A stretch of DNA of 49,332 bases, from the NCBI GenBank assembly GCA_009694095.1, contig SHVV01000003.1, positions 1 through 49,332 on the forward strand. Reading direction: 5' to 3'. The notes under the pieces were generated by a model that was not told the DNA's origin, ran no database searches, and saw only the letters and a list, made by a program, of their open reading frames with translations. This DNA comes from Alphaproteobacteria bacterium (GTDB lineage Bacteria > Pseudomonadota > Alphaproteobacteria > SHVV01). This document shows positions 14,959 through 37,884 of the stretch, in pieces. A program made the position numbers and the translations under genes. How positions within the stretch are numbered: the first letter of the stretch is position 1; each line of letters starts with the position of its first letter.

Positions 14959-17340
14959 ATGGCCGGTAAGTTTAAGGTCGCCATCGTCGGATCGGGACCT
15001 GCTGGAATGAGTGCCGGCGGCCGCGCTGCGGAAACCAACGTCTCGCACATCTTGTTTGAGAAATCCGACCACCTGTCGGACACCATCTATAAATACCAAA
15101 AAGGCAAGTTCGTCATGGCTACGCCAGACGTCTTGCCGCTGCGAAGCCCGATGACGTTCCAAGCCGGGATCCGCGAGGACATCCTGGGAACCTGGGACAA
15201 AGAAGCGGCGAAGCACAAGGTCAACGTCCGCTTCAAGAGCGAAGTCGTCGCGATCAAAGGACAAAAAGGGAACTTCGAACTCCGCGTCCAGGGCGGCGGC
15301 GATATCGTGGCCGAGTACGTAATCCTTTGCATCGGACTGCAGGGTAACCTGCGCAAACTCGAATGCGAGGGCGCCGACCGTCCCTGGGTGCAGTATCAAC
15401 TGGACGATCCCGACGCATACTCGGACGAAACCATCGTCGTGATTGGCGCCGGCGACGCGGCGATCGAAAATGCGGTTGCGCTTGCCAAGCAAAACAAAGT
15501 GATTATCGTCAACCGCCGCGATGAATTCGCCCGCGTCAAACAGGGCAATCTCAATCTGATCGCCGAAGCGATCGATAAGGGAATCATCGAGTGCTACTAC
15601 AACTCGGAACCGGGACACATCGGCGACAACTATCTTCTGCTGAAGACCGCCGAGGGCGAAGCCAAGATCGAGTGTAACCGCATCATCGCCCGACTTGGCG
15701 CCGACCCGCCGCGCCGATTCGTTGAATCGTGCGGCATCAAGTTTCCGAGCAAGGATCGCGCCGCGCTGCCCGAGCTTTCCGGGTCCTACGAGTCGAACGT
15801 TCCCGGCCTTTATATTCTCGGCGCCCTCGGCGGCTATCCGCTGATCAAGCAGGCGATGAACCAGGGCTACGAAGTTATCGAGTTCATCGAGGGGCGACCG
15901 GTCAAGCCAGCCGATGAGCCGCTGCTCGAATCAAAGTTCGCCAACATCAACGTGCCGGTCGAGGAGATGTTGCAGCGCATTCGGCAAAACGTACCGCTTC
16001 TTAGCGGCCTAACGACGCTGCAGTTGCGCGAGTTCATGATCGACTCGAATGTTCATACGCCGCGTCGCGGCGACGTTATTTTCCATCGCAACGACTACAC
16101 CAACAGCTTTTTCTCGATCGTCCAAGGCAATGTTGATATTCAGATCAATCCCACCAACACGGCGGAGGTGGTCGGCCTGGGACAGGGCCAATTCTTCGGC
16201 GAGATGGGCTTGATTTCAGGGCGGCGACGGACGGCAACGACAATTTCGGCGTCTGATGATTGCGTTCTCATCGAAACCCCGCGCCGATCGATGATCAAGC
16301 TGGTCAATTCTGTCGCCGCGGTGAAAAAGGTCCTCGATCAGACCGCGATGGCGCGGCAGATCCAGACCCATCTCGCCCCGGCCGTTCCGACGAGCGAGCT
16401 GCAGGAAGTCGTCGAGAGCGCGAAGATCGAGAGTTACCCGGCGGGTCACGTCATCTTCAACGAAGGAGACCAAGGCGACGCCGTCTACCTGATACGTCGC
16501 GGATCGGTCACCGTATCGCGCTCGATCGCCGGTCGGAATCTCGTGTTATCGTACGTACCCGCGGGCAACTACGTCGGCGAGATGGCTCTGCTCTCGCGCA
16601 AACCACGATCGGCGACGATCAAGACCGCCGTGGCGACCGAAGCGGTCAGGCTCGACGGTTCGGCGTTCAACAAGGTGCTCGACAAATATCCCGACCTGCG
16701 GCGACGTCTCGAGGCAAAATACGACCAACGTTTGGTCGAGAACGTGCGCATGGAGGCCTCGCCCGAGAGTGGCAGCCTCATTGAGTTTTTGGTCGCCCAG
16801 GGTGTCGGCGAAGCCACCGACGTACTTCTGATCGACGAGTCGCTCTGCGTACGCTGCGACAACTGCGAAAAAGCTTGCGCCGAAACCCACGGCGGAACCT
16901 CGCGGCTCGATCGCGAAGCTGGTCCAACCTTTGCCTCGCTTCACGTGCCGACGAGCTGCCGCCACTGCGAGCATCCGCATTGCATGGCTGATTGCCCGGC
17001 CGACGCCATTCACCGGGCCTCGAACGGCGAAGTCTTCATCGACGATAAATGCATCGGCTGCGGCAATTGCGAACGCAATTGTCCGTACCAGGTCATTCAC
17101 ATGGCGGCTAAACCACCCGCCAAACCAGGGTTGCTGCAGTGGTTGTTATTCGGCATGGGGCCGGGCCCCGGCGAAGACCTGGAAGCAAAGAAAATCAAGA
17201 GCAGTTCGCCAAAACTTGCCGTCAAATGCGACATGTGCAAGGACTTGGCGGCGGGTCCAGCGTGCGTTCGGGCTTGTCCGACGGGCGCGGCGATCCGCGT
17301 CAATCCAGAAGATTTTTTTGCGTTGACCATTAGAGGCTGA
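14959..17340 (+). CDS. FAD/NAD(P) oxidoreductase with two cyclic-nucleotide-binding domains and a four-cluster [4Fe-4S] ferredoxin module
   Basis: The product is 793 residues, cytoplasmic, with no signal peptide. Residues 1-310 form a two-dinucleotide-binding flavoprotein: FAD motif GSGPAG at 11-16 and NAD(P) motif GAGDAA at 163-168. The CxxC of thioredoxin reductase is missing. Residues about 350-460 and 475-590 are two cNMP-binding (Crp-type) folds, with GQFFGEMGLISGRRRTATT and NYVGEMALLSRKPRSATI at the ligand-pocket positions. Residues 625-790 hold sixteen Cys in four groups (630/633/636/640, 667/670/675/679, 698/701/704/708, 757/760/769/773), as in DmsB/NrfC-type subunits. It probably carries electrons between NAD(P)H and the next-encoded membrane cytochrome, gated by a nucleotide. 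The ATG is preceded by GGGAG. Confidence 0.88.
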   Translation: MAGKFKVAIVGSGPAGMSAGGRAAETNVSHILFEKSDHLSDTIYKYQKGKFVMATPDVLPLRSPMTFQAGIREDILGTWDKEAAKHKVNVRFKSEVVAIKGQKGNFELRVQGGGDIVAEYVILCIGLQGNLRKLECEGADRPWVQYQLDDPDAYSDETIVVIGAGDAAIENAVALAKQNKVIIVNRRDEFARVKQGNLNLIAEAIDKGIIECYYNSEPGHIGDNYLLLKTAEGEAKIECNRIIARLGADPPRRFVESCGIKFPSKDRAALPELSGSYESNVPGLYILGALGGYPLIKQAMNQGYEVIEFIEGRPVKPADEPLLESKFANINVPVEEMLQRIRQNVPLLSGLTTLQLREFMIDSNVHTPRRGDVIFHRNDYTNSFFSIVQGNVDIQINPTNTAEVVGLGQGQFFGEMGLISGRRRTATTISASDDCVLIETPRRSMIKLVNSVAAVKKVLDQTAMARQIQTHLAPAVPTSELQEVVESAKIESYPAGHVIFNEGDQGDAVYLIRRGSVTVSRSIAGRNLVLSYVPAGNYVGEMALLSRKPRSATIKTAVATEAVRLDGSAFNKVLDKYPDLRRRLEAKYDQRLVENVRMEASPESGSLIEFLVAQGVGEATDVLLIDESLCVRCDNCEKACAETHGGTSRLDREAGPTFASLHVPTSCRHCEHPHCMADCPADAIHRASNGEVFIDDKCIGCGNCERNCPYQVIHMAAKPPAKPGLLQWLLFGMGPGPGEDLEAKKIKSSSPKLAVKCDMCKDLAAGPACVRACPTGAAIRVNPEDFFALTIRG

Positions 17341-17382: not shown

Positions 17383-18210
17383 ATGCACGAGTCTATCTTA
17401 GTTTATCGACATTTCCGTTACCTTAAGTGGGCGGTAACGCTGACCGTGGTCGCAATTCTGGCGTATGTTTTTCACACGCCTGGCGAACCCGCGAACGGCG
17501 GCACGTGGCTTGGGTACACGTTAGGCGGGATCGGCGCTGGCCTCATTTTTTGGCTGGCGTGGTTCGGTATGCGAAAACGCGACTATGCCAAGCCGACCGG
17601 CAAACTCGAAGACTGGCTTTCGGCCCACATCTACCTCGGCTTGTCGCTGATTTTCATCGCCACGCTCCACTCCGGATTCCAGTTTGGCTGGAACGTTCAT
17701 ACGCTGGCATACGTCCTCATGATGCTCGTGATCGCTTCTGGCGCGTTCGGGCTTTACGCCTATATCCGCTACCCGCGGCTGATGACCGACAACCGTCGCG
17801 GTACGACGCTCGATGCGATGATCGTCGAAATGGCCGAGGCCGACCGGGAGATTCGCGAATTGGCCGCGAAAATGAGCGACGAGATACGCGATCTCGTTTT
17901 CGACGCAATCGACAACACCACCATCGGTGGCGGCGTTCGCCGCCAGCTCGAGCCGGGTCGCTCCGGCCGTACCGTCGCGGCAATCGACAAAGTACGCAGT
18001 GCGTTTGCGTCGGGGGCGCGCGACCAGACCGAAACCTCGCGCCGTCTTATCTCGCTGCTAACGCGCAAGAATGAGCTTGTCGTGCGGGCGCGCAACGACG
18101 TCATGTACAAAGCAATGATGGATGTTTGGCTGTACGTCCACGTGCCGCTTTCGTTCGCTTTGCTCGTGGCCTTGGTCGCCCACGTCATCGCCGTTTTTTT
18201 CTACTGGTAG
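17383..18210 (+). CDS. Diheme cytochrome b-like inner-membrane protein
   Basis: The product is 275 residues with about five membrane segments (near 16-31, 43-62, 78-96, 104-128, 248-272). H82 and H96 lie in one helix and H253 and H267 in another. Each pair has 13 residues between, the spacing that binds two stacked b hemes in cytochrome b families. Between helices 4 and 5 is a soluble, charged, helical loop of about 115 residues (130-247). The likely role is electron transfer across the inner membrane between the FAD/FeS protein and the periplasmic decaheme protein, possibly through quinone. The start is ATG after GGTGGGAGA. The family was not recognised by name. Confidence 0.75.
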   Translation: MHESILVYRHFRYLKWAVTLTVVAILAYVFHTPGEPANGGTWLGYTLGGIGAGLIFWLAWFGMRKRDYAKPTGKLEDWLSAHIYLGLSLIFIATLHSGFQFGWNVHTLAYVLMMLVIASGAFGLYAYIRYPRLMTDNRRGTTLDAMIVEMAEADREIRELAAKMSDEIRDLVFDAIDNTTIGGGVRRQLEPGRSGRTVAAIDKVRSAFASGARDQTETSRRLISLLTRKNELVVRARNDVMYKAMMDVWLYVHVPLSFALLVALVAHVIAVFFYW

Positions 18211-18219
18211 GGTAGACCC

Positions 18220-19905
18220 GTGCGCGTTCGAATTAGTCACCTCACGCGAAAAGCCAAGGGTGTCGCTCACCGCGACGAAGATCGCGAAGAGGATATTCTT
18301 CGTATCGGTCGAGCGACCGATTCGGAAATCTATCTACCCGATGCTCGAGTCAATCTCGTCCACGCGACGCTCAGTCGTCGGCCGGGCGGGTTCTTCATTG
18401 AGGCCGTTGGCGCATCGACGATCCGGCACAATGGCGCATCGCGCTCTTCAGCGCCGCTTAAGATCGGCGACAACGTCATGATCGGACCCTACGATTTGAC
18501 GATCGTTGCCCCCGCCGCCGGGGAAGCGATCGATGTCACGATTGCGGTAGAACTGGTCCGGGCGCAGGCCGACGATCTGGTCGCGCTACGCGCGCGAAGC
18601 CGGACGTCGATCGAAGAAACCGGCCTTCGTAAACGCAGCGTGTCATGGGCTCTATCGATTGTCGTTTTTGTCCTCTTTATCGCCTTGCCCATCGCCGGGT
18701 TCTTCATTCCGGGATTGAACGAATGGTCGCGCAAACTGCCGGTCGCATTCGACCATTCTTGGGATTCCGGGCCGGCGTCGGATTCGCATAAATTCTTTGC
18801 TGGCGACTGCAGCGCTTGCCACCAAAAGGCGTTCGTACAGGTGCGCGACTCGGCTTGTCTGGCATGCCACGCCAAAATCGAAGAGCATGCGCCGCACGAC
18901 GTGAAGGTCGCTGCTTTGTCGGAGGAGCGATGCGCGCACTGCCACAAAGAACACACGCACAATGACGCGATCATCGTCCGAGCGCAGGGGTTCTGCGCCA
19001 ACTGTCACGTCGACCTAAAGAAATTCAACTCTAAATCGACGGTTGCCGATATTGGCGACTTCTTCAGCCAACACGCCGAATTCCGGCCAACCGTCGTCAA
19101 GGCCGTCGAAACGAAAAAATTCGAACGCGTGTCGCTTTCCGACAAAGCTAATCTGATCGAACAATCGAACCTGAAGTTCCCGCACGATAGACATCTGAGC
19201 GAACGCGGCGTGCGCGGACCAAACGGCGTCAGGCAGCTAAAATGCGCCGATTGTCACGAGCCCGACCGCGGCGGCGTCGGTTTGTTGCCAATCGAGATGA
19301 CCAAGCACTGCGCCGATTGCCACCAACTCACCTTCGATCCACGTGCGCCCGAGCGTAAACTGCCGCACGGCGACGTTGCTTCGGCTGTCGGCGTCATTCA
19401 AGACTTCTACGCCGGTCTCGCGCTGAGGGGCCAGATTGAAGAGGAATCGGCGCCGGCTTCGGTTCGCCGACGCGTGGGCCAGCCACTTCGTGAAGAAGAG
19501 AAAAAAGAAGCGCTTGCCTGGGCCGAGACCAAAGCCAAACAACAGATGGAGATAATCCTCGGTACGTCGCTCTGTAAGAGCTGTCATATCGTCGAGCCGC
19601 CGAGCGCGCAGAATCCGTCATGGCGCGTGAAGCCAGTCAAGGTCGTAAACGTCTGGATGCCAAAGGCCATATTCGTCCATGCCAAGCATTCGACCGTCGA
19701 CTGCACGCACTGTCACGACGCACCTAAATCGACGCAGTCATCCGACGTCTTGATGCCTTCGATCAATACTTGCCGCGAATGCCACGGCGGCGAAAATCAG
19801 GCGAGCCGACTTCCATCGCCGTGCGCGATGTGCCACGTCTTCCACCGGCAAGATCTCGGGCCAATGCGCCCAGACTTCAAGAAGACGGCGGCAACGGGTA
19901 ATTAG
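18220..19905 (+). CDS. FHA-domain protein fused to a membrane-anchored periplasmic decaheme cytochrome c
   Basis: The product is 561 residues. Residues 20-100 form an FHA (phosphothreonine-reading) fold: ILRIGRATDSEIYLPD, VHATLS and RHNG. Residues 142-164 are one membrane helix. The rest is periplasmic with ten CxxCH heme sites at 197, 213, 238, 259, 342, 364, 452, 495, 518 and 535. The FHA domain would lie in the cytoplasm, with the topology set by the RKR just before the helix. The canonical FHA Ser before the His is replaced (NLVHA), so phosphopeptide binding is uncertain. The start is GTG, nine bases after the cytochrome b stop. It probably takes electrons from that protein and passes them across the periplasm. 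Confidence 0.88.
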   Translation: MRVRISHLTRKAKGVAHRDEDREEDILRIGRATDSEIYLPDARVNLVHATLSRRPGGFFIEAVGASTIRHNGASRSSAPLKIGDNVMIGPYDLTIVAPAAGEAIDVTIAVELVRAQADDLVALRARSRTSIEETGLRKRSVSWALSIVVFVLFIALPIAGFFIPGLNEWSRKLPVAFDHSWDSGPASDSHKFFAGDCSACHQKAFVQVRDSACLACHAKIEEHAPHDVKVAALSEERCAHCHKEHTHNDAIIVRAQGFCANCHVDLKKFNSKSTVADIGDFFSQHAEFRPTVVKAVETKKFERVSLSDKANLIEQSNLKFPHDRHLSERGVRGPNGVRQLKCADCHEPDRGGVGLLPIEMTKHCADCHQLTFDPRAPERKLPHGDVASAVGVIQDFYAGLALRGQIEEESAPASVRRRVGQPLREEEKKEALAWAETKAKQQMEIILGTSLCKSCHIVEPPSAQNPSWRVKPVKVVNVWMPKAIFVHAKHSTVDCTHCHDAPKSTQSSDVLMPSINTCRECHGGENQASRLPSPCAMCHVFHRQDLGPMRPDFKKTAATGN

Positions 19906-19960
19906 TGGCTCCATGCGTAGTTTTAAATATCGTGAACTGAAGAATGACGGAGGCTGCCCG

Positions 19961-20392
19961 TTGTTGAAACGAGTGATGCTATGGGGCATTGGGGGCGTGC
20001 TGGCGCTTGCCATGACGACGACGTTTGAATCGGCACAGGCGGCGTCTTTGTCGACGTCCGGAGCGGTCTTGACCGATCTGCGGGCCGACATCGACAACGC
20101 ACAGATTTCGCAAACCATCGATCTCAATGGCGACGTTGCGATCGCGACCTACGTCATGGCGCACATGCCCGATGGCAAGTCATTGCAACGCAACAATCTC
20201 GGCTACTGGTTGCCGTGGAACGGCCAGATCGACACCCTCCTCGACAATAAGTTCGTCGCCGGAGGTTCGACGCTCACATTCAAGATCATCGACCAAAGTA
20301 TTCGCGATCGAATGTTTCCGATCACCTTCGTCGTCGCCTATCGCACGGCCGCGGCGTTCAAGTTCGGCGTGCTTCAAGTGTCGCCCCAATAA
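19961..20392 (+). CDS. Small exported hypothetical protein of the conduit operon
   Basis: The product is 143 residues from TTG 19961. That start is chosen because GGAGG lies 7 bases upstream and it gives a good signal peptide (KRVMLWGIGGVLALAMTTT, cleavage near AQA-ASLS). The mature part is about 115 residues, beta-rich, with GYWLPWNGQIDTLLDN and the ending FKFGVLQVSPQ, and no cysteines. No family was recognised. Its place between the decaheme and HbpS-like genes suggests a periplasmic accessory or assembly factor of the conduit. A start at ATG 19913 would bury the signal sequence behind 16 polar residues. Confidence 0.7.
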   Translation: MLKRVMLWGIGGVLALAMTTTFESAQAASLSTSGAVLTDLRADIDNAQISQTIDLNGDVAIATYVMAHMPDGKSLQRNNLGYWLPWNGQIDTLLDNKFVAGGSTLTFKIIDQSIRDRMFPITFVVAYRTAAAFKFGVLQVSPQ

Positions 20393-20398
20393 ACGAGC

Positions 20399-22279
20399 AT
20401 GCTGATACGACATTGGATTCAAGCGTTTGTTTCGACCTTCATCGCCGCCGTGGCAACCGGTCCGGTGGCAGCAGAGAGTGCGCTGACGGCGGCCGAAGTC
20501 GGCCAGATCATCGCGCAAGCGGTCAACGAAGCCCAGGGGCGCGGCGCATTGGCGACGATCGCTGCCGTCGATCGCGTCGGCAATGTCTTGGGCGTATTCC
20601 AGATGACCGGCGCCGCCGCCAACGCGACGATCAGTTCAGGCCGCAACGTCGTCGGCGGGCTCGAAGCCGCCGCCGTTCCTTCGACGCTCGCCGCCATCGC
20701 CAAGGCGATCACCGGCGCCTACATTTCTTCCCGCGGCAATGCGTTCACGACACGCACCGCGAGTCAGATCGTCCAGCAAAACTTCAACGTCGGCGAAACT
20801 TTTCAACCCGGCGGACCGCTGTTCGGCGTGCAATTCAGTCAGCTGCCGTGCTCGGACCTCGCCGTGCGTTTTTTCGATGGTGGCGCGGGCGGCATCGTTA
20901 ACGCGACGCTCGGGCCGAAACGCTCGCCGCTTGGCCTCTCGGCCGACCCCGGCGGGCTCCCGCTCTATAAAGCCGGCGACCTCGTCGGCGGAATCGGGGT
21001 CATCAGCGACAGCCTTTATTCGCTCGACCCAGTCATTACCAATTTCGATACCGACGCCGACGAATTGATCGCGGTCGGTGGCCAATCCGGATTCGCGCCA
21101 CCCAACGATATCAAGGCGAATTTCATTTCGGCCGGCGGACGGACGCTCCGCTACATCGATCGCGGGCCCGAAGCATTGGCGCGAAACCCGGCGACTGCGA
21201 CTGCATTCGGCGGGATCAACGGCGTCGTCGGCGTGCTCGCTAACGTCACCGGCTATTTCACTGCCGGCGGCGGCATTCTCGCTGGGCGGCAATACGGTAC
21301 CGCCGCGTCAGGCTATCGCCTTGAAGACGGGACGACTTACGGAACATTCCGCAACGGCAACCGCGCGATGATCTTGGTAGATGGCGCCGACACCAACCGA
21401 TTCCCGCCGGCCGTTGGCAGCGATGGACTGCTGTCGGCGGCCGAGGTGACTCGAATCATGATCGGAGCGCTGGCGGTGGCTTACGCTGGCCGGGCGCAAA
21501 TCCGGCGGCCGCTTTCGGACAACATTCACGTTACGATCTCGATCGTCGACACCAACGGCAAGATTCTGGCGTTGGCGCGGACCTTCGATGGTCCAGTGTT
21601 CGGCACCGACGTATCGCTGCAAAAAGCCCGCTCGGCGATGTTCTTCAGCAATCTCAACGCGGCTGCTGACTTTACTGCCGGGGGCCACGGCGCGCGCGTT
21701 GCGCAGGTTCGAACTTTCTTCGGAATCCCGACGTTATTGGCTGACGGTATCGCCTGGGGAAATCGCTCGATCGGCAATATCGCTCGCCCGTACTACCCCG
21801 ATGGCATCAACGGCAATCCGAATGGTCCGCTCAGCAATCCGGAATCCGCTTGGAGCCCGTTTTCGGTCGGGCTCCAGCTTGAGTTGGTCTCCGCCAACAT
21901 CCTGACCCACCTCGGATTCGTCGCCGGCCTGAACGCCGACACGCCGTCGCGTTGCACCGCGCTGCCGTTGCAGGTCGCGACCGGCGCGCCGAGGCTTGCC
22001 AACGGCCTGCAGATTTTCGCCGGCGGCGTTCCGATTTTCCGGGGCAATACCCAAGTCGGCGGCATCGGCATCTCCGGCGATGGCATCGACCAAGACGACA
22101 TGGTGGCATTCCTCGGCTTGCACAACGCTGGAGTCGCGCTCGCGACCGGCGTCAGTAACGCGCCCAAGGGGATCCGCGCCGATAATATCAGCGCATTTGG
22201 CGCTCGGCTGCGCTACGTCAATTGCCCGTTCGCGCCCTTCATCGACACATCGGCTCAGAACGTATGCGCCGGCAAATGA
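20399..22279 (+). CDS. Exported tandem HbpS/GlcG-like (DUF336) protein
   Basis: The product is 626 residues with a signal peptide (residues 1-25, ending PVAAES). Two copies of the GlcG/HbpS fold start near residues 28 and 344: ALTAAEVGQIIAQAVNEAQG with IAAVDRVGNVLGVFQM, and LLSAAEVTRIMIGALAVAYA with ISIVDTNGKILALART. Each copy is interrupted by long insertions and then resumes with GDLVGGIGV or TQVGGIGIS. Single-domain relatives bind heme or act as redox-linked accessory proteins. Doubling with large inserts is unusual. It probably resides in the periplasm or at the cell surface with the conduit cytochromes. It is six bases after the preceding gene and overlaps the next. Confidence 0.75.
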   Translation: MLIRHWIQAFVSTFIAAVATGPVAAESALTAAEVGQIIAQAVNEAQGRGALATIAAVDRVGNVLGVFQMTGAAANATISSGRNVVGGLEAAAVPSTLAAIAKAITGAYISSRGNAFTTRTASQIVQQNFNVGETFQPGGPLFGVQFSQLPCSDLAVRFFDGGAGGIVNATLGPKRSPLGLSADPGGLPLYKAGDLVGGIGVISDSLYSLDPVITNFDTDADELIAVGGQSGFAPPNDIKANFISAGGRTLRYIDRGPEALARNPATATAFGGINGVVGVLANVTGYFTAGGGILAGRQYGTAASGYRLEDGTTYGTFRNGNRAMILVDGADTNRFPPAVGSDGLLSAAEVTRIMIGALAVAYAGRAQIRRPLSDNIHVTISIVDTNGKILALARTFDGPVFGTDVSLQKARSAMFFSNLNAAADFTAGGHGARVAQVRTFFGIPTLLADGIAWGNRSIGNIARPYYPDGINGNPNGPLSNPESAWSPFSVGLQLELVSANILTHLGFVAGLNADTPSRCTALPLQVATGAPRLANGLQIFAGGVPIFRGNTQVGGIGISGDGIDQDDMVAFLGLHNAGVALATGVSNAPKGIRADNISAFGARLRYVNCPFAPFIDTSAQNVCAGK

Positions 22280-24087
22280 CCTTATGGTACGTTTTCTATG
22301 TTGCGCTCGCGGTAGCGATCACCCTGGCAACATCGCCATCGTTTGCCGGCAAAGAAAAAATCGAAGCCAGCGGTGAAACCGGCGTCACGCTGGCGCAGGC
22401 AACCGACGAAGATCGCCGCCGACCCGGGCGTCCGGTCCCGGACCGGCAACAAATCCCCGCAGTCGATTCGTCCCGGGTGCCGCCGCCGCAGCCGACGCTG
22501 CCGCGCGAAACCATCCCGGTTCCCGATCGTTGGCGCATCGTCGAGTCGATCGGCGTCAACTCGCGTTGGTGGGACCCGTACAATCAGAACATGCTCAAGG
22601 GCGACCGGCCGGTGTTCGATGACTGGTTCGTCAACTTGAGCGTGATCCTCGACGCGATTTACGAACCACGCCGGTTTCCCAACCCGACCGGCACGCAGGC
22701 GACGACCAACGCCAACGCGGTCGATCAGTTCGGCAAGAACAAGCAGACGGTTCTCGCCGAGAACCTGATCACCACGCTGTCGTTTATCAAAGGCAACACC
22801 GCCTACCAACCGCCGGACTATGAAATCCGCATCGGGCCGGTCTTCAACCACAATAAGGTGGTGGCGGAGGAAGTGGGGCTGCTGTACGCCGACCCGGCCA
22901 AGGGCCGCACGCGCAGCGATCAGTTCGTCGGCTGGCAGGAGCTGTTCCTCGACTACCATATTCGCAACGTCTCCGATCGGTTCGATTTCGACTCGATCCG
23001 TCTCGGTATCCAGCCCTTTCAACTCGACTTCCGTGGATTCCTCTTTCAGGACTTGCAGCTCGGCGCGCGTCTGTTCGGCAACCGCGACAACAATTTCTGG
23101 CAGTACAACGTCGGTTGGGTGCGCCGCCTCGAAAAAGACACTAATAGCGGTTTGAACGACATCGGCGCCAAGCTGCGCGACGATGACGTCTACTTCGTCA
23201 ATCTTTTCCGCCAGGACTGGCCGGTGCTCGGATTCACGAGCCAGGCCGTGGTCGCGCACAACCGCAACAACGAGGACGATCGCCGCTATTTCAACGAGAA
23301 CGAGTTCCAGGAGCGTCCGGCGCCGATCGGCGATCAACGGCCGCGCAAGTATCACGTCACCTATCTCGGGCTGAACGGCGACGGACACTTCGGCCGGCTC
23401 AACCTGACCGGCTCGCTCTATTACGCATTCGGTAAAGACGAGCTTAATCAATTCGCCGGCGACGGATCGAGCGCCGATATCCGCGCCTATTTCGCCGCTA
23501 CGGAGGCGTCTTGGGACTTCAGCTGGATTCGAGTTCGTGCCCAAGCGGCGTATGCGTCCGGCGATAACGATCCAACTGACGGCAAGGAGGGCGGCTTCGC
23601 GGCGATCTTCGAAAACCCGCAGTTCGCCGGCTCAGATACGAGTTACTTCATTCGGCAGTCGATCCCCTTCATCGGTGGCGGCGGCACGACGATCACTTCG
23701 CGCAACGGGATGCTCACGGAGCTGCGCACCTCGAAGGAGCACGGCCAGTCGAACTTCATCAATCCGGGCTTGATCCTTGCCGGCTTCGGCACCGACATGG
23801 ACCTCTCGCCGCAGCTTCGCGTCTCGACCAATTTCAACCACTTGTCGTTCGCCACCACCGATTCGCTCGAGTTCCTGCGCAATCAGAACGCGATCGGCGA
23901 CGAAATCGGTTACGACCTCTCGGTCGCTTTCACCTATCGCCCGCATTTCACGCAGAACGTCGTGTTCCGGCTATCCGGCGCCTGGTTGATCCCGGGCGAC
24001 GGGTTTCGCGACATCTACCGGGCGCGAACCGGAACCGGCGACGACTTCTTCTACTCCGTGCTCGGCAACGTGACTCTCACCTATTAG
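22264..24087 (+). CDS. Outer-membrane beta-barrel protein of the conduit operon
   Basis: The product is about 607 residues. The ATG at 22264 gives MRRQMTLWYVFYVALAVAI with a positive start and signal cleavage near SFA-GKEK. The ATG at 22276 gives a 4-base ATGA overlap with the previous stop and is the alternative. After a proline-rich linker come many alternating amphipathic strands with aromatic girdle residues (FNHNKVVAEEVGLLYAD, LTGSLYYAFG, AQAAYASGDNDPTDG). It ends in a barrel-closing strand with terminal LGNVTLTY, the aromatic end recognised for outer-membrane assembly. The GDNDPTDG phrase recalls alginate-export-type porins. It is likely the pore or sheath through which the decaheme protein contacts the outside. 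Confidence 0.8.
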   Translation: MRRQMTLWYVFYVALAVAITLATSPSFAGKEKIEASGETGVTLAQATDEDRRRPGRPVPDRQQIPAVDSSRVPPPQPTLPRETIPVPDRWRIVESIGVNSRWWDPYNQNMLKGDRPVFDDWFVNLSVILDAIYEPRRFPNPTGTQATTNANAVDQFGKNKQTVLAENLITTLSFIKGNTAYQPPDYEIRIGPVFNHNKVVAEEVGLLYADPAKGRTRSDQFVGWQELFLDYHIRNVSDRFDFDSIRLGIQPFQLDFRGFLFQDLQLGARLFGNRDNNFWQYNVGWVRRLEKDTNSGLNDIGAKLRDDDVYFVNLFRQDWPVLGFTSQAVVAHNRNNEDDRRYFNENEFQERPAPIGDQRPRKYHVTYLGLNGDGHFGRLNLTGSLYYAFGKDELNQFAGDGSSADIRAYFAATEASWDFSWIRVRAQAAYASGDNDPTDGKEGGFAAIFENPQFAGSDTSYFIRQSIPFIGGGGTTITSRNGMLTELRTSKEHGQSNFINPGLILAGFGTDMDLSPQLRVSTNFNHLSFATTDSLEFLRNQNAIGDEIGYDLSVAFTYRPHFTQNVVFRLSGAWLIPGDGFRDIYRARTGTGDDFFYSVLGNVTLTY

Positions 24088-24097
24088 GGTCGCCTCA

Positions 24098-27000
24098 ATG
24101 CGCTTGGTCTTTGCCGCGATCTTTTTCTTCGCGCTCGGCGTTGCCGGCGGCGGTATGGCGTCCGAAGGCGAGAAGCCGCTCGACCTTCAATACGTGACAG
24201 CGCCGCCAGCGCCGGTATCGCAAACACAAGCTCAGGCCGACGCCAAAAGTGTGGGCTGCATGAGCTGTCACACCCAGACCGATCAGAAGACGATGCATGC
24301 CAACCCGGCGATCGTCTTGGGGTGCGTCGACTGCCACGGTGGCGACGCTGCGGTGCGCAAGCCGGAAGGTTCGAAATACGACCGCACCTACGCGAAGGAG
24401 AAGAAAGCGCTCCACCACGACGACGAACACGGAAAGGGCGGCGAGGAAGAGCGCCATGGCGCAATCGACCCGTTGTTATTCGGCGACGCCGCCTACGTCG
24501 CGGCGATGCAAAAAGCCCACGTCATGCCGCGCATGCCCAATACCTGGGGCTATCCGCGCAGCCGCAACCCCGAGCGCGCCTACACGCTCTTCAACAAGGA
24601 GGCGCCGGAGTACATCCGCTTCGTCAATCCGTCCGACTACCGCATTGCGCGAGAGGCCTGTGGCGCCTGCCACTTGCCGATCATCCAAGCCGCCGAGCGC
24701 CATCTGATGTCGACCGGCGCCATGCTGTTCGGTGGTGGCGCCTACAACAACGGCATACTTCCGTTCAAAAACTATCTCTTGGGCGAGGCTTACACGCGAG
24801 ACGGCCAGCCGGCCGCGGTCGAAAGCCCTGGCTTCACGCCGGAGATGAAGAAGTGGGGCGTCATCGAAAAGTTGGTGCCGTTGCCGACGTTCCAGACCGT
24901 GCCGCCGGGCGACGTTTTCCGCGTGTTTGAGCGCGGCGGGCGCAACATCGTCACCCAGTTCCCCGAGATCGGGTTACCCAACTCGCTCGGCCAGATTCAA
25001 CGTCTCGAAGAACCGGGCCGTCCCGATTTACGCCAGTCGATGCGCGGGCCTGGAACCGGGCTTCGCATTGCGGTGCCGGTCCTCAACATTCACCGAACGC
25101 GCCTCAACGACCCGTTCATGTGGTTCATGGGCACCAACGATCAGCCCGGCGACTACCGCACGTCGGGTTGCGGCGGTTGCCACATCGTTTACGCCAACGA
25201 CCGCGACCCGCGCCACTCGGGGCCTTATTCGATTTACGGACACGAGGGCAAGACCCAGACTATCGACCCGACGATCCCGAAGGACGAAGAAGGCCACCCG
25301 ATCAAGCACGAATTCTCGCGCCAAATTCCGACCGCGCAGTGCATGAACTGTCACATGCACCAACCCAACGTCTTCGTGAACAGCTTCATGGGCTACACGA
25401 TGTGGGACTACGAATCGGATGCACCGAACATGTGGCCGGAGAAACAGCAATATCCGACCGCGGCCGAGATCCGAAAAGTCAACGAACGCAATCCCGAGGA
25501 AGCCGCGATCCGCGGCAAGTGGGCGGACGTCGAGTTCACCAAGAACGTGTGGACCGACGTCAACCCGAAGAACAAGGATACGCAATTCGCCGACTATCAT
25601 GGCCACGGCTGGAATTTCCGCGCCATCTATAAACGCGATCGCAAAGGCAATTTGCTCGACGCCGATGGCAAGATCGTTTCCAACGACGATCCGCAGAAGT
25701 TCAAGAAAGCCGTGCACATGTCGTCGATCCATGTCGACAAAGGCATGCACTGCATCGACTGTCATTTTTCCCAGGACGCTCACGGCAACGGCTACATCCA
25801 GACCGAGGTCGCCAACGCGGTCGAAATCGATTGCGCCGACTGCCACGGCACGGTCGACAAGTTGCCGTCCCTCATTACGAGCGGGCCGGCGGCGCTCCGC
25901 GGCGGTTACGACCTCACGCTGATCCGCCTGGGCGACGGCCGCCGCCGTTTCGAATGGCGTGGCGACACGCTTGTCCAGCGCTCGGCGCTGTGGCCCAATC
26001 TCGAGTGGGAGATGAGTCTCGTCAAACACAGCGTCGAGCCCGATCACAAGGACTACAACCCCAAGGCGGCGCGGGCGAAGCTGATGTCCAAGGATACAGC
26101 GTCGCTCAAGTGGGGCCCCGGGGTTGCCAAGGACGATCGCGCCCATAAAGACGACGAAATGCTGTGTTTCACATGCCACCTCTCGTGGACGACGAGCTGC
26201 GCTGGTTGCCACCTGCCGATTCAGGCCAACTGGAAGGCGCCTTCGCATAAGTACGAAGGCCAAGTCTCGCGCAACTACGCGACTTACAACCCGCAAGTCG
26301 CGCGCGACGATGTCTTCCACTTGGGTCGCCACCAGACCACAAAAGGCAACAAGATCGCTCCCGTCCGGTCTTCATCGGGGCTGGTGTTGTCGTCGCAGAA
26401 CATTAACCGCGAGCGCATCTACATCCAGCAGCAGCCGGTCGCCGCCTCGGGCCACTCGGCGCAGGCTTTCGCTCCACACTTCCCCCACACTGAGCGCAAG
26501 ACCGAAACCAAGACCTGCAACGATTGCCACCTGTCGGAGAGCGACGACAACAACGCGATCATGGCCAACACGCTGATGTTCGGGACCAATTTCCCGACCT
26601 TCGTCGGCGCCAATGCCTGGGTCGCCGCGGATGGCGGCATCGAGGGCGTGCAAGTGACCGAGTACGACGAGCCGCAGGCCGTCATCGGCAGTTACCTGCA
26701 CCGATATGCCTACCCCGACTGGTATGCCGACCACCAAAAGCACGGCAAGGAACTGCAGATCGCCCACAACCACCCATCGGCGCGCGCCGCCTGCCTCCAG
26801 CTTCGCGGCGAATATCTCTACGTCGCCGAGGGCCCGAATGGGTTCCGCGCCTACGACGTCGCCTCGATCGCCAACAAAGGATTTTCACAGCGCATCGTCA
26901 CGGCGCCGTTCGGCCCGTGGGGTCACGACACCCACATCGCCACAAAGAACGCGACCTGCGTGGCCTTGCCGTCGAACGCCCAAGCGATTCATCCGGCGCG

Positions 27001-27970
27001 CAACCAGGGCGACCTGATGCGCAAGGACAATCAGGAGCAGCCGTTCCACCCAATCTACGACTACGCGTTCGTCACCGACTCGGAAGAAGGTCTGATTGCG
27101 GTCGACGTCAACACTCTTTCGGACGGCGAGCCGCGCAATAATTTTTTCACCCGCGCGCTGACGTGGAACGAGAACGGAGTCCTGAACGGCGCCCGCCACA
27201 TCACGATCGCTGGCTACTATTTCTACATCGTCGCCGATTCGGGCATCGTCGTTCTCAACATGGACGATCCGATGAAGCCCAAGGTCGAAAGCATCATACC
27301 GCTGAAAAACGGCCATTCGACGGCGCTCCAGTTCCGCTACTTGTTCGCCACCGACGCCGAGGGCTTCAAGGTGTTTGACGCCACCAACATGGCCAAACCG
27401 GTTGCGGTGCCCGGCGCCGTCATCCCGCTCAGAAATGCCAACCGCATCCTGCCGGTCCGAACCTACGCTTATGTCGCCGCCGGCAACGAGGGTCTTGTCA
27501 TCATCGACATCGAGAAACCGCGTAAACCTTCGGTCTACATGAAGTACACCGCCGACGGCGCGATCAACGATGCGCGCGACGTGACAGTAGGCACGACTAA
27601 CGCGACGCTCTTCGCTTACGTCGCCGACGGCAAGAACGGTCTCAAGGTGATTCAACTGACCGCGCCTGACACGCAGCCCAACTTCTACGGGTTTAGCCCT
27701 GAGCCCAAACCGAACCTGATCGCGTGGTACAAGACGACTTGGCCGGCGCTCGGTCTCTCCAAAGGGCTCGAACGTGACCGCGCCGTCGATGAAACCGGCG
27801 GTCAGATCGCGGTCTTCGGTCGGCTAGGGTCGCGTCCGTTCTCGAAGAAAGAAATGGAGAAATTCTATCTCGATGCCCAAGGGCGGCCGTGGTTCACCCA
27901 CGAGGAAATTCGCCAACGTGACTTCGTGTCGGTCAAGCCCGGCGAGCGCAAGGCGGCGAGAGCGAACTGA
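24098..27970 (+). CDS. Large decaheme cytochrome c with C-terminal LVIVD-type beta-propeller
   Basis: The product is 1290 residues with a signal peptide (1-21). Ten CxxCH sites are at residues 54, 76, 188, 358, 415, 552, 579, 690, 701 and 807. Widely spaced hemes and many extra His suggest bis-His ligation. From about 895 to 1190 there are repeated blade-like units (YLYVAEGPNGFRAYDVASI, YIVADSGIVVLNMDDPMKP, YVAAGNEGLVIIDIEKPRKP, AYVADGKNGLKVIQL), as in LVIVD-repeat propellers, probably a surface or ligand-binding module. It ends with a short KK/RK-rich tail. It lies eleven bases after the barrel gene. This is the probable terminal reductase or oxidase of the conduit; the partner (metal, mineral or soluble compound) is unknown. 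Confidence 0.88.
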   Translation: MRLVFAAIFFFALGVAGGGMASEGEKPLDLQYVTAPPAPVSQTQAQADAKSVGCMSCHTQTDQKTMHANPAIVLGCVDCHGGDAAVRKPEGSKYDRTYAKEKKALHHDDEHGKGGEEERHGAIDPLLFGDAAYVAAMQKAHVMPRMPNTWGYPRSRNPERAYTLFNKEAPEYIRFVNPSDYRIAREACGACHLPIIQAAERHLMSTGAMLFGGGAYNNGILPFKNYLLGEAYTRDGQPAAVESPGFTPEMKKWGVIEKLVPLPTFQTVPPGDVFRVFERGGRNIVTQFPEIGLPNSLGQIQRLEEPGRPDLRQSMRGPGTGLRIAVPVLNIHRTRLNDPFMWFMGTNDQPGDYRTSGCGGCHIVYANDRDPRHSGPYSIYGHEGKTQTIDPTIPKDEEGHPIKHEFSRQIPTAQCMNCHMHQPNVFVNSFMGYTMWDYESDAPNMWPEKQQYPTAAEIRKVNERNPEEAAIRGKWADVEFTKNVWTDVNPKNKDTQFADYHGHGWNFRAIYKRDRKGNLLDADGKIVSNDDPQKFKKAVHMSSIHVDKGMHCIDCHFSQDAHGNGYIQTEVANAVEIDCADCHGTVDKLPSLITSGPAALRGGYDLTLIRLGDGRRRFEWRGDTLVQRSALWPNLEWEMSLVKHSVEPDHKDYNPKAARAKLMSKDTASLKWGPGVAKDDRAHKDDEMLCFTCHLSWTTSCAGCHLPIQANWKAPSHKYEGQVSRNYATYNPQVARDDVFHLGRHQTTKGNKIAPVRSSSGLVLSSQNINRERIYIQQQPVAASGHSAQAFAPHFPHTERKTETKTCNDCHLSESDDNNAIMANTLMFGTNFPTFVGANAWVAADGGIEGVQVTEYDEPQAVIGSYLHRYAYPDWYADHQKHGKELQIAHNHPSARAACLQLRGEYLYVAEGPNGFRAYDVASIANKGFSQRIVTAPFGPWGHDTHIATKNATCVALPSNAQAIHPARNQGDLMRKDNQEQPFHPIYDYAFVTDSEEGLIAVDVNTLSDGEPRNNFFTRALTWNENGVLNGARHITIAGYYFYIVADSGIVVLNMDDPMKPKVESIIPLKNGHSTALQFRYLFATDAEGFKVFDATNMAKPVAVPGAVIPLRNANRILPVRTYAYVAAGNEGLVIIDIEKPRKPSVYMKYTADGAINDARDVTVGTTNATLFAYVADGKNGLKVIQLTAPDTQPNFYGFSPEPKPNLIAWYKTTWPALGLSKGLERDRAVDETGGQIAVFGRLGSRPFSKKEMEKFYLDAQGRPWFTHEEIRQRDFVSVKPGERKAARAN

Positions 27971-28138: not shown

Positions 28139-29482
28139 TTAAGACCGCGGGATCGCCTCGTTGAGCTTCCGCATCGCCGCGACGAACGCTTCCGGCCGAT
28201 AAGCTTCGTCCTTCGCCGTCGCGTCGTACGCCTCGTTCAAGGTATTGATCATCTTTTTGTGCTGAGCGTCGTTGACGAGGCCCGACTGTTTCATCGCATT
28301 GATGATCGCCGAAAGCGCCATCGTCGCTTGCTCCGCCGTCGCATAGTCGACGAATTCACCCTTCATGCCCTCTTGGGTGACGCCGCTCAGAAGCGCTTCC
28401 ATGTCTTTGCGCTCGAAGGTGTGCTTGGCGAACCGGTCGACCAGCTGCGCGACAATCGCCAGCATCTCCTTGGCGGCATCGGCCGTTTGCTGCGGGCTCT
28501 GGGTCGAAGCCTGATGCAACTTAACCGTAGAGTCGCGGAGCCGTTGTCCGGACGGCTCATCGACCTGCGTTGCAATGATGCGCAGCATGATCATGTTCGC
28601 GTCGTTGAGCCGAATGATGCCCGGCCCGAGCTTGGCGCTTTCACGCCGTTGCCAGCGTACGTTGCTCATCGGGTGATGGCACGCGTGGCAGTCGAACAGC
28701 ACGAGCTCGGGGAAAATACCGTCGTGGCTTCGGGTCGGCGACGTCAAGGCCTCAAGGAGCCCGCGGAGTTGAATTGCTTGACCGATCGCCCAGGTCTGAA
28801 CGCCGTTCAGGACCGGCTTGCGCTTGCGATAGTCGGCATCGACGACGAAGTGCGCCGGCTGGATGGCGGTAAACGTGTCGAGCTCAAAGCTCATGCGTGG
28901 ATGGCCGGCACCCATAATGCGGTGGGTGACGAACTTGGTTTCGTTGCCGAAGTGGCACGACAGGCAAAGCTCGGCTCGCTTAACCGGGTCGGTGGTTGGA
29001 TACATGCCGTTCTTCAGATTGTCGGCGTGACCGGCCGTGCCCGAGATGTGAATGCCGAGCCAGCGTACCGCACCGCCATGACACGCCTCGCACCCAACGC
29101 CATCCGATACCTGGTAGGTGCGGCCGCGCGCTTCGGGGGCGGGACTGTCGGCGTGACAATCGAGGCAAATCTTCGCCGTATGGGCGTTGGGAAGCCCCAA
29201 ATTGGCGGCAATCCGTTTTGAGCGCTCGTTATGCAGCACCTCGAACGCTTTGGCGTGCTTATCCTGACGCGTCCAGGTGACGTATTCGTTTTGCTGAACG
29301 TTGGCGTCCTTCCATGGCGTGACCGCGCCGTGGCACGTGGAGCCGGCGCAACTGGCGACGCCGAGGTGTACGTCTTTGCTCTGGGACGGCAATTGCTGGC
29401 CAACAGCAGCCCACGCGAGAACGCTCGCGAAAAGGCCGACGACAAGGAATGAGCGAAGGGTCATCCCCAAGCGCCGCGTCAT
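28139..29482 (-). CDS. Multiheme c-type cytochrome (cytochrome c554-like)
   Basis: The product is 447 residues from ATG 29482, chosen because GGGAGGA lies just upstream; a longer frame to 29521 lacks such a site. The signal peptide ends near AVGQQ. Four CxxCH sites lie at residues 106, 131, 173 and 265. A fifth candidate, C45-AGST-C50-H51, has four residues between the cysteines. The blocks HLGVASCAGSTCHG, DGVGCEACHGG and ELCLSCHFGN resemble the c554 family. The last 170 residues are heme-free and helical. It is periplasmic and convergent with the conduit operon, and may be an electron shuttle or reductase partner. The substrate is unknown. Confidence 0.85.
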   Translation of the reverse strand: MTRRLGMTLRSFLVVGLFASVLAWAAVGQQLPSQSKDVHLGVASCAGSTCHGAVTPWKDANVQQNEYVTWTRQDKHAKAFEVLHNERSKRIAANLGLPNAHTAKICLDCHADSPAPEARGRTYQVSDGVGCEACHGGAVRWLGIHISGTAGHADNLKNGMYPTTDPVKRAELCLSCHFGNETKFVTHRIMGAGHPRMSFELDTFTAIQPAHFVVDADYRKRKPVLNGVQTWAIGQAIQLRGLLEALTSPTRSHDGIFPELVLFDCHACHHPMSNVRWQRRESAKLGPGIIRLNDANMIMLRIIATQVDEPSGQRLRDSTVKLHQASTQSPQQTADAAKEMLAIVAQLVDRFAKHTFERKDMEALLSGVTQEGMKGEFVDYATAEQATMALSAIINAMKQSGLVNDAQHKKMINTLNEAYDATAKDEAYRPEAFVAAMRKLNEAIPRS

Positions 29483-29571
29483 GATTCCTCCCTGAAACTT
29501 GTCTCTTCCGAACGCTCTCACTGCTTCAATACTATGGCGCGCTCCCGGGCAATGATAAAGCCTTAAGTCGG

Positions 29572-30327
29572 ATGCCGGAACTACCCTTGCAATCGATTCT
29601 CATTATCGCCGCGGCGCCGTTTTTCGGCAGTTTTATCGCGACTGTTGCCCGCCGTTTGCCGGCCGGATCGAGCATCGTCTTTGGCCGATCGCGATGCCCC
29701 TACTGCCAAGCGGTGCTATCACCGCGGGACCTCGTTCCGGTCCTCAGTTGGGCGCTCGCGAAGGGCCGTTGCCGTCTGTGCGGACATGCGCTCGGCGGCT
29801 ACTATCCGGCGGTCGAATTGATTGCGCTCGCGATCGCCGCGGTTGCGGTTACCTTTTTCACGGGGCCCTGGTCTTGGGTCGCGGCATCGTTTGGTTGGGC
29901 GCTGCTCGCGCTCGCGGCGGCCGATGCCGACTCTTTCACGCTGCCCGACTCGATCACGCTCCCGCTAATACCAACCGGCCTCGCCGCCGCGTGGGGGCTC
30001 GATCCCGATCGACTTCTTATGCACGCACTGGCCGCCGTGGGTGGGTTCGTTTGTTTCGCCGCGATTACGGTCGCTTACCGCGCGATTCGCCACCGCGATG
30101 GCCTCGGTTGGGGTGACGCCAAGCTCATGGCCGCCGCCGGCGCTTGGGTAGGGCCCTGGCCGCTGCCCTCGATCGTTCTCGCCGCTGCACTCGCGGCGCT
30201 CTCGGTCGTTGCGGTCAGCCGCCTTCGCGGCCGTAGCATCGAGGCGACGGAACAGGTACCCCTTGGCCTCTACCTCGCTCCGGCGATATGGGCCGCTTGG
30301 GTGGCCGAGCGTACCGGCGCGCTCTAG
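29572..30327 (+). CDS. gspO: Type II secretion prepilin peptidase GspO
   Basis: The product is 251 residues with about seven membrane segments. The zinc-type cysteine pairs CPYC and CRLC lie in the first cytoplasmic loop. The two catalytic aspartates of the GxGD protease family are in AAADADSFTLPD and GLGWGDAKLMAAAGAW. It cleaves and N-methylates pseudopilins G-K encoded downstream. The ATG at 29572 gives the usual MPELPLQSILII start. It is the first gene of the secretion operon and divergent from the c554-like gene (89 bases between starts), a likely two-way promoter region. Confidence 0.9.
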   Translation: MPELPLQSILIIAAAPFFGSFIATVARRLPAGSSIVFGRSRCPYCQAVLSPRDLVPVLSWALAKGRCRLCGHALGGYYPAVELIALAIAAVAVTFFTGPWSWVAASFGWALLALAAADADSFTLPDSITLPLIPTGLAAAWGLDPDRLLMHALAAVGGFVCFAAITVAYRAIRHRDGLGWGDAKLMAAAGAWVGPWPLPSIVLAAALAALSVVAVSRLRGRSIEATEQVPLGLYLAPAIWAAWVAERTGAL

Positions 30328-30406
30328 CAGTGTTCGCTCGAATGGCGCGGCCGCGCAGGTCCGGTTAAGATACCGCGGTAACTCACGATTTCAGGTGCTG
30401 ACCGCG

Positions 30407-32080
30407 ATGCCCCGCGAACTTGCGGACATATTGATCGATTCCGGCAAGCTCGACGCGCAGGCCCTCGACCGGGCGCTAGCTCTGGGCCGTTCAACCGGCG
30501 AGCGGACCGACGTCGTTCTCACTCGACTCGGGCTCGTTTCCGAGGACGACATGGCCCAAGCGCTGGCTGAGTTCCTGGGGCTGCGCGTCGCTCGTGCAGA
30601 ACACTATCCCGACGTGCCGGTCCTCACCGGACGGGTAACGCCGCGCTTCCTGCGCGAAGCGCGCGTACTACCGCTCGAAGAGCGCGAAACCGGTCTCACG
30701 CTAGCGATGGCCGACCCGCTCGATCGCTATGCGCTCGACGCGATGGGACTGCTGATCGGTAAAAAAATCGAGCGGTGGGTTGCGGTCCCCGCCGAGTTGG
30801 AGCGGGCGTTGGCCCGGCTGTACGGCGAGGGCGGTGCGACCGCGGAGAAGCCTGTGGCGGACGCCCGCGACCTATATTCCGCCGACGCGGCGCGGCTACG
30901 AGATCGCGCAAGCGATGCGCCGGCGATCCGCGCCGTCGACCAAATGATCGAAGACGCCACCGCCGAACGCGCATCCGATATCCACCTCGAACCGCTGGTC
31001 GATCGCATCCGCGTTCGCTTTCGGATCGATGGCATGTTGCGCGAACGGCCGGCGCCAATGGCCGCGGTGCGCACTGCCATCGTCAATCGGATCAAGGTCA
31101 TGGCCGGTTTGAATACGGCCGAACGGCGGTTGGCGCAGGACGGGCGTATCCGAACCAGTGTACGCGGTCGAGAGCTCGACATCCGCGTTTCGATCATTCC
31201 GGTCCAATACGGCGAGAGCGTCGTTCTACGCCTCCTCGACAAGTCACACGGTCCGGTCGATTTCGATCGGCTCGGCTTCGCACCTGACCTGGCGGCCAAG
31301 CTCGGCGACCTGCTCGCGCTGTCGCATGGACTAGTCCTGGTCACGGGACCGGTCGGCAGCGGTAAGACGACGACGCTCTACGCCGGCCTCAAGCGCCTGA
31401 ACTCAAGCGAACGTAAGATCGTAACCGCAGAGGATCCGATCGAGTACGAACTTCCCGGCATTAATCAAACGCAGGTCAAGCCGGCGATCGGCTTTACGTT
31501 CGCCGACGTGCTTCGGGCAACGCTGCGTCACGATCCCGACGTTTTGATGATTGGCGAAATCCGCGACCGAGAGACGGCGGAGATCAGCGTCCAAGCGGCT
31601 CTCACCGGGCACCTTGTTCTCACGACTCTACACACCAACGACGCAGCGAGCGCGGTGACCAGGCTCCTCGACATGGGAATCGAGAGTTTCCTTCTCGCCT
31701 CGGTTTTGCGGGCTGTTGTCGCACAGCGCCTGGTTCGAACGCTGTGCCTTGCGTGTCGTGCGCCTTACCGGCCGAGCGCCGAGGAGGCCGCCTACGCCGG
31801 AATAGCGCCGACGGCCGACGGCCAAATGCCGGACTTTTTTCACGCGGTCGGCTGTCCCGCTTGCGGCGGCACCGGCTATTCCGGTCGTACCGTAGTTGCC
31901 GAATTGCTCCCGGTTGATGAAGTAGTGCGCCCACTTATTCTCCAACGCGCCGATTGGCATACCATCGCGCGGGCGGTGGGCGCGGCCGGCGTTCGTAGTT
32001 TGGCCGCCGACGGTTTTGCCAAAGTGCGTGCCGGCGTGACAACCATTGCCGAAATCGTCCGTGTCACGCGGACTGTTTAG
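30407..32080 (+). CDS. gspE: Type II secretion ATPase GspE
   Basis: The product is 557 residues. The N-terminal T2SSE_N domain (ADILIDSGKLDAQALDRAL, EDDMAQALAEFLGL) is followed by the ATPase core. The core has Walker A GPVGSGKTTT near residue 315, the Asp box EDPIEYELPGINQTQV, Walker B VLMIGEIRDRETAE and the His box GHLVLTTLHTNDA. The C-terminal zinc knuckle CLAC plus CPACGG is present, as in GspE. It powers pseudopilus assembly from the cytoplasm, docking on GspL. The ATG at 30407 is chosen by homology of the first helix; open frame continues upstream into gspO without a start signal. Confidence 0.93.
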   Translation: MPRELADILIDSGKLDAQALDRALALGRSTGERTDVVLTRLGLVSEDDMAQALAEFLGLRVARAEHYPDVPVLTGRVTPRFLREARVLPLEERETGLTLAMADPLDRYALDAMGLLIGKKIERWVAVPAELERALARLYGEGGATAEKPVADARDLYSADAARLRDRASDAPAIRAVDQMIEDATAERASDIHLEPLVDRIRVRFRIDGMLRERPAPMAAVRTAIVNRIKVMAGLNTAERRLAQDGRIRTSVRGRELDIRVSIIPVQYGESVVLRLLDKSHGPVDFDRLGFAPDLAAKLGDLLALSHGLVLVTGPVGSGKTTTLYAGLKRLNSSERKIVTAEDPIEYELPGINQTQVKPAIGFTFADVLRATLRHDPDVLMIGEIRDRETAEISVQAALTGHLVLTTLHTNDAASAVTRLLDMGIESFLLASVLRAVVAQRLVRTLCLACRAPYRPSAEEAAYAGIAPTADGQMPDFFHAVGCPACGGTGYSGRTVVAELLPVDEVVRPLILQRADWHTIARAVGAAGVRSLAADGFAKVRAGVTTIAEIVRVTRTV

Positions 32081-33328: not shown

Positions 33329-33764
33329 CGCCCATCCCGATCGCTCGCGCTGGCGCGTCGCGGGCTACACTTTGATCGAACTCCTGGTCGTGCTGGTAAT
33401 TCTGGGCTTGCTGGTCGGGGTCGTCGGGCCGCAGATTTTCCCTTACCTCGGACGCGGTAAGTCGGAAACCGCCGCGCTGCAAATCAAGAGCCTCGAAGCT
33501 GCGATCGACCTGTTCCGCCTCGACGTTCTGCGGCTTCCAACCCAGCAAGAGGGCCTTGAGGTGCTGGTCAAGAAACCCGAGGGCGTCAGTCGTTGGACCG
33601 GCCCCTACCTCAAGGGCGGAAGAATCCCACTCGATCCGTGGGACCGCGCCTACGTTTACCGCATCCCAAGTCTGAGCGGCGGCGACTACGATCTGTTTTC
33701 GCTCGGCGCCGATGGTCGCGAAGGCGGCGAAGGTGAAAACCGCGACATCACGAACCGCCCTTGA
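33312..33764 (+). CDS. gspG: Major pseudopilin GspG
   Basis: The product is 150 residues. The prepilin site G-YTLIELLVVLVILGLLVG has Glu5 and a leader of about 17 residues. The rest follows GspG: TAALQIKSLEAAIDLFRLD, LRLPTQQEGLEVLV and PLDPWDRAYVYR, with the calcium-loop ending LGADGREGGEGENRDI. It polymerises into the pseudopilus after GspO processing. The ATG at 33312 lies inside the end of gspF; an upstream open frame is gspF read-through. Confidence 0.93.
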   Translation: MRSRYSAHPDRSRWRVAGYTLIELLVVLVILGLLVGVVGPQIFPYLGRGKSETAALQIKSLEAAIDLFRLDVLRLPTQQEGLEVLVKKPEGVSRWTGPYLKGGRIPLDPWDRAYVYRIPSLSGGDYDLFSLGADGREGGEGENRDITNRP

Positions 33765-36127: not shown

Positions 36128-36174
36128 CGCCCTGATTCGTTGCCTGAGAGCAATACCAAGTGTAGCTTTCCAGT

Positions 36175-37883: not shown

Positions 37884-37884
37884 C

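Follow-up and report, generated by a model that had tools for sequence, protein, structure and literature searches.

Porin-cytochrome conduits served by an inner-membrane protein with two b hemes are already known as a kind of system. In PCC3 and PCC4, this protein carries WX3HX13H motifs on helices 3 and 5 and an SGXXG motif on helix 4, which have been read as two b hemes, and PCC4, whose decaheme cytochrome is listed as periplasmic, was proposed for the uptake of electrons from an extracellular donor (He et al. 2017, PMC5566968). A 'Forkhead-associated protein' with 10 CXXCH motifs has also been listed as Gallionellaceae cluster 403, recorded for 27 of the 87 iron oxidisers and placed in Table 1 under 'Other' with neither a function nor an operon (Hoover et al. 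2023, PMC10734462). In the open-access literature, this table row was the sole earlier mention of an FHA-multiheme fusion that was found, and no functional study of such a fusion was found.

In our study, an alphaproteobacterial stretch of 49,332 nucleotides (hereafter the window) was analysed around a gene encoding an FHA domain, a membrane helix and ten hemes in one protein, referred to here as the FHA cytochrome. The FHA name and the ten hemes are common to this protein and cluster 403 and, likened by description, the two very probably belong to the same family. Together with the oxidoreductase OXR and the membrane protein CYB, encoded upstream, it probably forms a widespread but barely studied three-part machine which carries electrons between the metabolism of the cell and its exterior. 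As far as our tools show, an inner-membrane module of this FHA, FAD and cyclic-nucleotide kind is undescribed.

Architecture and hemes of the FHA cytochrome

The ORF list, Pfam, homologue alignment and profile searches define the FHA cytochrome as a protein of 561 amino acids (18220..19905, + strand), whose GTG start codon lies nine bases past the stop of the upstream gene. The FHA-fold domain covers residues 24-97 (18289..18510, + strand) and is followed by a single transmembrane helix, located by hydropathy and alignment, with its peak at residues 145-163 (18652..18708, + strand) and RKR just before it. The ten-heme region spans residues 197-539 (18808..19836, + strand), and the Pfam models Cytochrome_C7 and class III cytochrome match the protein outside the FHA domain. 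This architecture is kept in an alignment of 25 homologues, spread over many families within the Alphaproteobacteria and the other Pseudomonadota; the set includes the window protein, to which the remaining members are 29-72% identical. Because the whole arrangement is conserved, the fusion is far beyond chance, and an assembly artefact, a frame-shift fusion or a chance FHA match is ruled out. The earlier note had read this ORF as an FHA domain joined through a membrane helix to ten hemes, and Pfam, hydropathy, motif count and the homologues all bear it out. The attachment of c-type hemes is periplasmic and the hemes lie beyond the single helix, hence the FHA domain must be cytoplasmic; the invariant R139 directly before the helix agrees with this orientation, which had also been proposed.

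The CXXCH motifs start at residues 197, 213, 238, 259, 342, 364, 452, 495, 518 and 535 and all ten are kept across the homologues, the distant member L077 having nine by the strict pattern and one of its motifs in the form CX4CH. Nine histidines outside the motifs (H190, H223, H245, H285, H322, H325, H383, H487 and H542) are invariant in the 25 homologues and H490 is conserved in at least 90% of them. Ten motifs and ten conserved extra histidines lead to the expectation of ten bis-His hemes. A catalytic role of the hemes was rejected, as a candidate distal histidine is present for every heme, and the heme region would thus be expected to serve as a wire. Membership in the MtrA/MtoA group was rejected, since the score of the FHA cytochrome against TIGR03508 (DmsE family; MtrA/MtoA/PioA decaheme) is only 17.4 bits in comparison to a cut-off of 192.2.

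Upstream neighbours and the sister system

OXR (14959..17340, + strand) is a cytoplasmic oxidoreductase of 793 amino acids in which domain searches and alignment have highlighted three parts. A TrxR/YpdA-like FAD-NAD(P) domain covers residues 5-303, with the RR of the TrxR NADPH motif only partly conserved. Two cyclic-nucleotide-binding domains, resembling those of PKA regulatory subunits and CRP, follow at about residues 366-590; their phosphate cassettes (GE...R.AT/S) both keep Glu and Arg in 25/25 homologues, by which the sites look apparently intact and cyclic-nucleotide control of OXR may be supposed. The ferredoxin part (residues 622-785) has 16 Cys, invariant in 25/25 and enough for four [4Fe-4S] clusters. 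PF13247 (Fe-S) matches OXR, which is located directly upstream of CYB but has its Fe-S part fused to the FAD and cyclic-nucleotide-binding domains.

CYB (17383..18210, + strand), recognized by hydropathy, alignment and motif search as a five-helix membrane protein of the PCC3/PCC4 inner-membrane type, contains two WX3HX13H motifs (W78/H82/H96 and W249/H253/H267) and SGXXG at residue 119. Across its homologues, both WX3HX13H motifs are found in 25/25 and SGXXG in 24/25, and H82, H96, H106, H253 and H267 are invariant. On the basis of these ligands, CYB is predicted to carry two b hemes. An AlphaFold2 model of CYB (pLDDT 58, three-sequence alignment) gave no meaningful fold match.

In each of the 24 homologous loci analysed in addition to the window, the genes for OXR, CYB and the FHA cytochrome lie side by side, which supports the link to the upstream oxidoreductase suggested in the earlier note. 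With thresholds of E < 1e-60 for CYB and E < 1e-35 for the FHA cytochrome, the strong matches of both fall in an identical set of 36 among 385 genomes of the class, and 25 other genomes have weak CYB matches only. A decaheme cytochrome with LVIVD repeats is found in 28 genomes, all of them inside the set of 36. A search for a conserved partner with cyclase or phosphodiesterase activity yielded only a metallophosphoesterase, located beside the triad in five sphingomonad-like loci. On large Sphingobium plasmids (megaplasmids; L064 and L065) the whole system is present and is followed by the metallophosphoesterase, one copy being annotated as the cAMP phosphodiesterase CpdA.

Further fetched loci hold a sister system, with operons encoding a tetraheme cytochrome, a cyclic-nucleotide-binding Fe-S protein of about 550-590 amino acids without FAD, a CYB-like protein, a ten-heme cytochrome, a five-heme cytochrome and a barrel, an arrangement in agreement with the published description of PCC4 subgroup II (He et al. 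2017, PMC5566968). The sister ten-heme cytochrome has the same helix, whereas the FHA domain is swapped for a conserved cytoplasmic Cys-rich domain, about 85 residues long and with up to nine conserved Cys (YERP..CGRA..GKPC..GP..DG.CGGT.EC...), for which no Pfam match was found. Genes of this kind lie at L094:2649-4670, L103:7218-9185, L100:8940-10883 and in 13 more loci. OXR has the FAD domain in 24/24 fetched FHA loci, whereas its counterpart is without FAD in 16/16 Cys-rich loci. This pairing is suggestive of contact between the cytoplasmic domain of the cytochrome and OXR, but in the CYB tree the FHA type and the Cys-rich type each form one group, and therefore the pairing amounts to a single evolutionary contrast and is weak proof of contact.

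In comparison to PCC4 subgroup II, the window system shares the five-helix protein with two WX3HX13H motifs and SGXXG, the upstream Fe-S gene, ten- and four-heme cytochromes and a porin. On the other hand, FHA takes the place of the Cys-rich domain in the window, the cyclic-nucleotide-binding Fe-S protein carries a fused FAD domain, the barrel is of another kind, an LVIVD decaheme and an HbpS protein are present, and the five-heme protein is absent. Its decaheme is membrane-anchored with a cytoplasmic domain, in contrast to the periplasmic listing in PCC4. The PCC4 set of a porin with 4-, 5- and 10-heme cytochromes is present in three other loci (L066, L072 and L073), whereas the window cytochromes have 10, 10 and 4 hemes. 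In case of PCC3, the signature of the inner-membrane protein is common to CYB, whereas the FHA, cyclic-nucleotide-binding and LVIVD domains lie outside PCC3 as described (He et al. 2017; Hoover et al. 2023). PCC3 has a periplasmic cytochrome of 21-27 hemes (about 21 or more) together with a large extracellular one; the two large cytochromes of the window have 10 hemes each. In L089 and L097, the neighbours of CYB are cytochromes with 21 and 24 hemes, which corresponds to the PCC3 arrangement. A separate Fe-S and FAD protein of 434-449 amino acids, resembling parts of OXR, is also encoded in these PCC3-like loci (L089:2788-9350 and L097:2479-10887) and is a candidate cytoplasmic partner for PCC3.

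The FHA domain and its probable role

The domain search proposed in the earlier note placed PF00498 (FHA) on residues 28-89 with 28.3 bits, above the cut-off of 20.7 (E 2.5e-6), which is the only FHA match in the window's own genome, a 63%-complete MAG. A profile built from the 25 FHA-domain sequences retrieved GarA at E 2e-11, as well as the FHA domains of Rv1747, OdhI, FhaA and Rad53. The AlphaFold2 model of the FHA and transmembrane part has low confidence (pLDDT 51, three-sequence alignment of the window and two related loci); it contains ten strands, and FHA domains rank first among its Foldseek matches.

The phosphothreonine (pThr) site is altered. G30 and R31 are invariant, and the Arg of the phosphate pocket is retained in 25/25, as the earlier note had it. 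It was also right that the usual Ser is replaced near VNLVHA: the phosphate-contacting position after beta4 (residue 45, N45 in the window) is Ser in only 2/25 and is replaced in 23/25. The claim that the Asn is retained stands for N71 (present in 15/25), which aligns with the second Asn of 'SLNGTYVN' in GarA, but fails for the peptide-contacting Asn of LNG (the SxNG loop), which aligns to a gap in a shortened loop. Thus, the fold and the invariant GR are common to this domain and those of GarA, OdhI and Rv1747, whereas the pThr-contacting Ser and Asn are absent and the domain is membrane-anchored and fused to hemes. With these recognition residues lost, a role as a structural clamp is more likely for the domain than one in sensing phosphorylation.

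The earlier note had proposed that FHA may recruit a phosphorylated partner, the upstream oxidoreductase for instance, to the membrane. In such a case OXR or CYB would be phosphorylated on Thr by a Ser/Thr kinase, and the electron route would be switched in this way. The clear FHA fold and the invariant phosphate-contacting Arg speak for such recruitment, but the altered Ser and the deleted Asn speak against it, and so does the want of kinase matches in several near-complete carriers. Hanks-type kinases (PF00069) were searched in 34 genomes carrying the FHA cytochrome; matches were above the cut-off in 17 and none were present in 15. Of these 15, 11 are at least 97% complete (G061, G068, G146, G257, G314, G335, G573, G617, G698, G702 and G743), the window's own MAG has a single sub-threshold match, and no kinase gene is conserved in the neighbourhoods of the homologous loci. 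We therefore regard phospho-recruitment as quite improbable. The alternative that FHA is a self-assembly module packing the cytochromes into rings or arrays can draw on YscD/PrgH or EssC, whose FHA-like domains in the cytoplasm are phospho-independent. Yop-YscD_cpl matches the FHA region about equally in E-value (1.3e-6 in comparison to 2.5e-6 for FHA), in the homologues as well, but falls below its own cut-off; the profile favours canonical FHA domains such as GarA, Foldseek ranks GarA-type domains above YscD, and self-assembly leaves the tie to an FAD-bearing OXR unexplained, which makes this alternative unlikely. The heme redox state might instead pass through the helix to FHA and be signalled to a cytoplasmic partner, as the earlier note had also considered. 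Only the topology speaks for such a sensor. None of the conserved neighbours encodes a signalling partner; they are redox proteins whose cofactor path points to electron transfer, and a single helix joined to ten bis-His hemes resembles a conductor, so that we give this sensor very little credence.

In the reading that we favour and hold to be rather probable from the sequence evidence, the FHA cytochrome forms the periplasmic arm, anchored in the membrane, of a three-part complex with OXR and CYB, and FHA is a phospho-independent dock for OXR. OXR, with NAD(P)H or ferredoxin, FAD and four 4Fe-4S clusters, would exchange electrons with the two b hemes of CYB, and these in turn with the ten c hemes of the FHA cytochrome, which would connect to the outer-membrane porin/multiheme conduit. 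FHA would hold OXR against CYB at the inner membrane face, and the two cyclic-nucleotide sites probably gate OXR. Electron export would be equally compatible with such a complex as uptake. The retained Arg of the phosphate pocket and the poor models of the FHA part and CYB count against this reading. A possible variant, held tentatively, keeps the same complex and overlaps with the favoured reading on the role of FHA, but lets CYB serve the quinone pool, as proposed for PCC3/PCC4 (He et al., PMC5566968); OXR would then be a side input under cyclic-nucleotide control and NAD(P)H would not be the main partner. The CYB signature common to PCC3/PCC4 and a sister OXR entirely without FAD are consistent with this variant, whereas an OXR with FAD and four clusters in every FHA-type locus argues against it. 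As a speculative and somewhat doubtful extension of the dock reading, cyclic-nucleotide binding on OXR might alter the clamping by FHA and so open or close the electron path linking NAD(P)H to the outside, making the system a trans-envelope wire gated by a second messenger, with FHA and Cys-rich domains as interchangeable couplers matched to the oxidoreductase type.

If the favoured complex is real, about one tenth of the sampled alphaproteobacterial genomes (36/385), as well as Sphingobium megaplasmids, would hold a full NAD(P)H path through both membranes with cyclic-nucleotide control built in. The unexplained inner-membrane protein of PCC3/PCC4 would gain two partners, one in the cytoplasm and one with hemes anchored in the membrane, and electron entry to or exit from the cytoplasm would become a testable question with three adjacent genes.

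Outer-membrane modules and other genes of the window

In the window and most of its relatives, the triad is followed by the HbpS-like protein, the predicted barrel and the ten-heme LVIVD cytochrome, with a tetraheme C554-type cytochrome often close. In the window, a small secreted-looking protein of 159 amino acids, which recurs in several operons, comes first (19913..20392, + strand; ORF list and locus comparison). The HbpS-like protein (20399..22279, + strand) has PF03928 in three stretches and a signal-peptide-like N-terminus, and the predicted outer-membrane beta-barrel (22222..24087, + strand) matches Alginate_exp (PF13372) just at the cut-off; both assignments come from Pfam and locus comparison. 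The HbpS-like protein usually adjoins the barrel gene in LVIVD-type clusters. Domain search, motif count and locus comparison identified the ten-heme cytochrome with LVIVD repeats (24098..27970, + strand), which has a signal-peptide-like N-terminus, and the tetraheme C554-type cytochrome (28139..29521, - strand), which recurs in most clusters.

The FHA-type triads of L066, L072 and L073 adjoin PCC4-type genes for the 4-heme and 5-heme cytochromes and the porin, whose pentaheme and barrel proteins are about 50-66% identical to the counterparts in the sister system; hence the type of cytoplasmic domain on the cytochrome does not follow that of the accompanying outer-membrane module.

Reading of the translations revealed a prepilin peptidase and type II secretion genes next (29572..40592, + strand), and this secretion system may export the outer cytochrome. 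Type II secretion genes adjoin the cytochrome cluster in other genera and families too (L107, L067, L112 and L113), accompanied by two uncharacterised proteins homologous to those at 40614-41813 and 41867-43816 of the window. Near the contig start, the ORF at 354-1127 is presumably an IS6-type DDE transposase-like one, and a small ORF at 10083-10472 ends in VPLPAALPLLASGLAGPGFMGWRRRK, which resembles a VPLPA/PEP-CTERM sorting tail.
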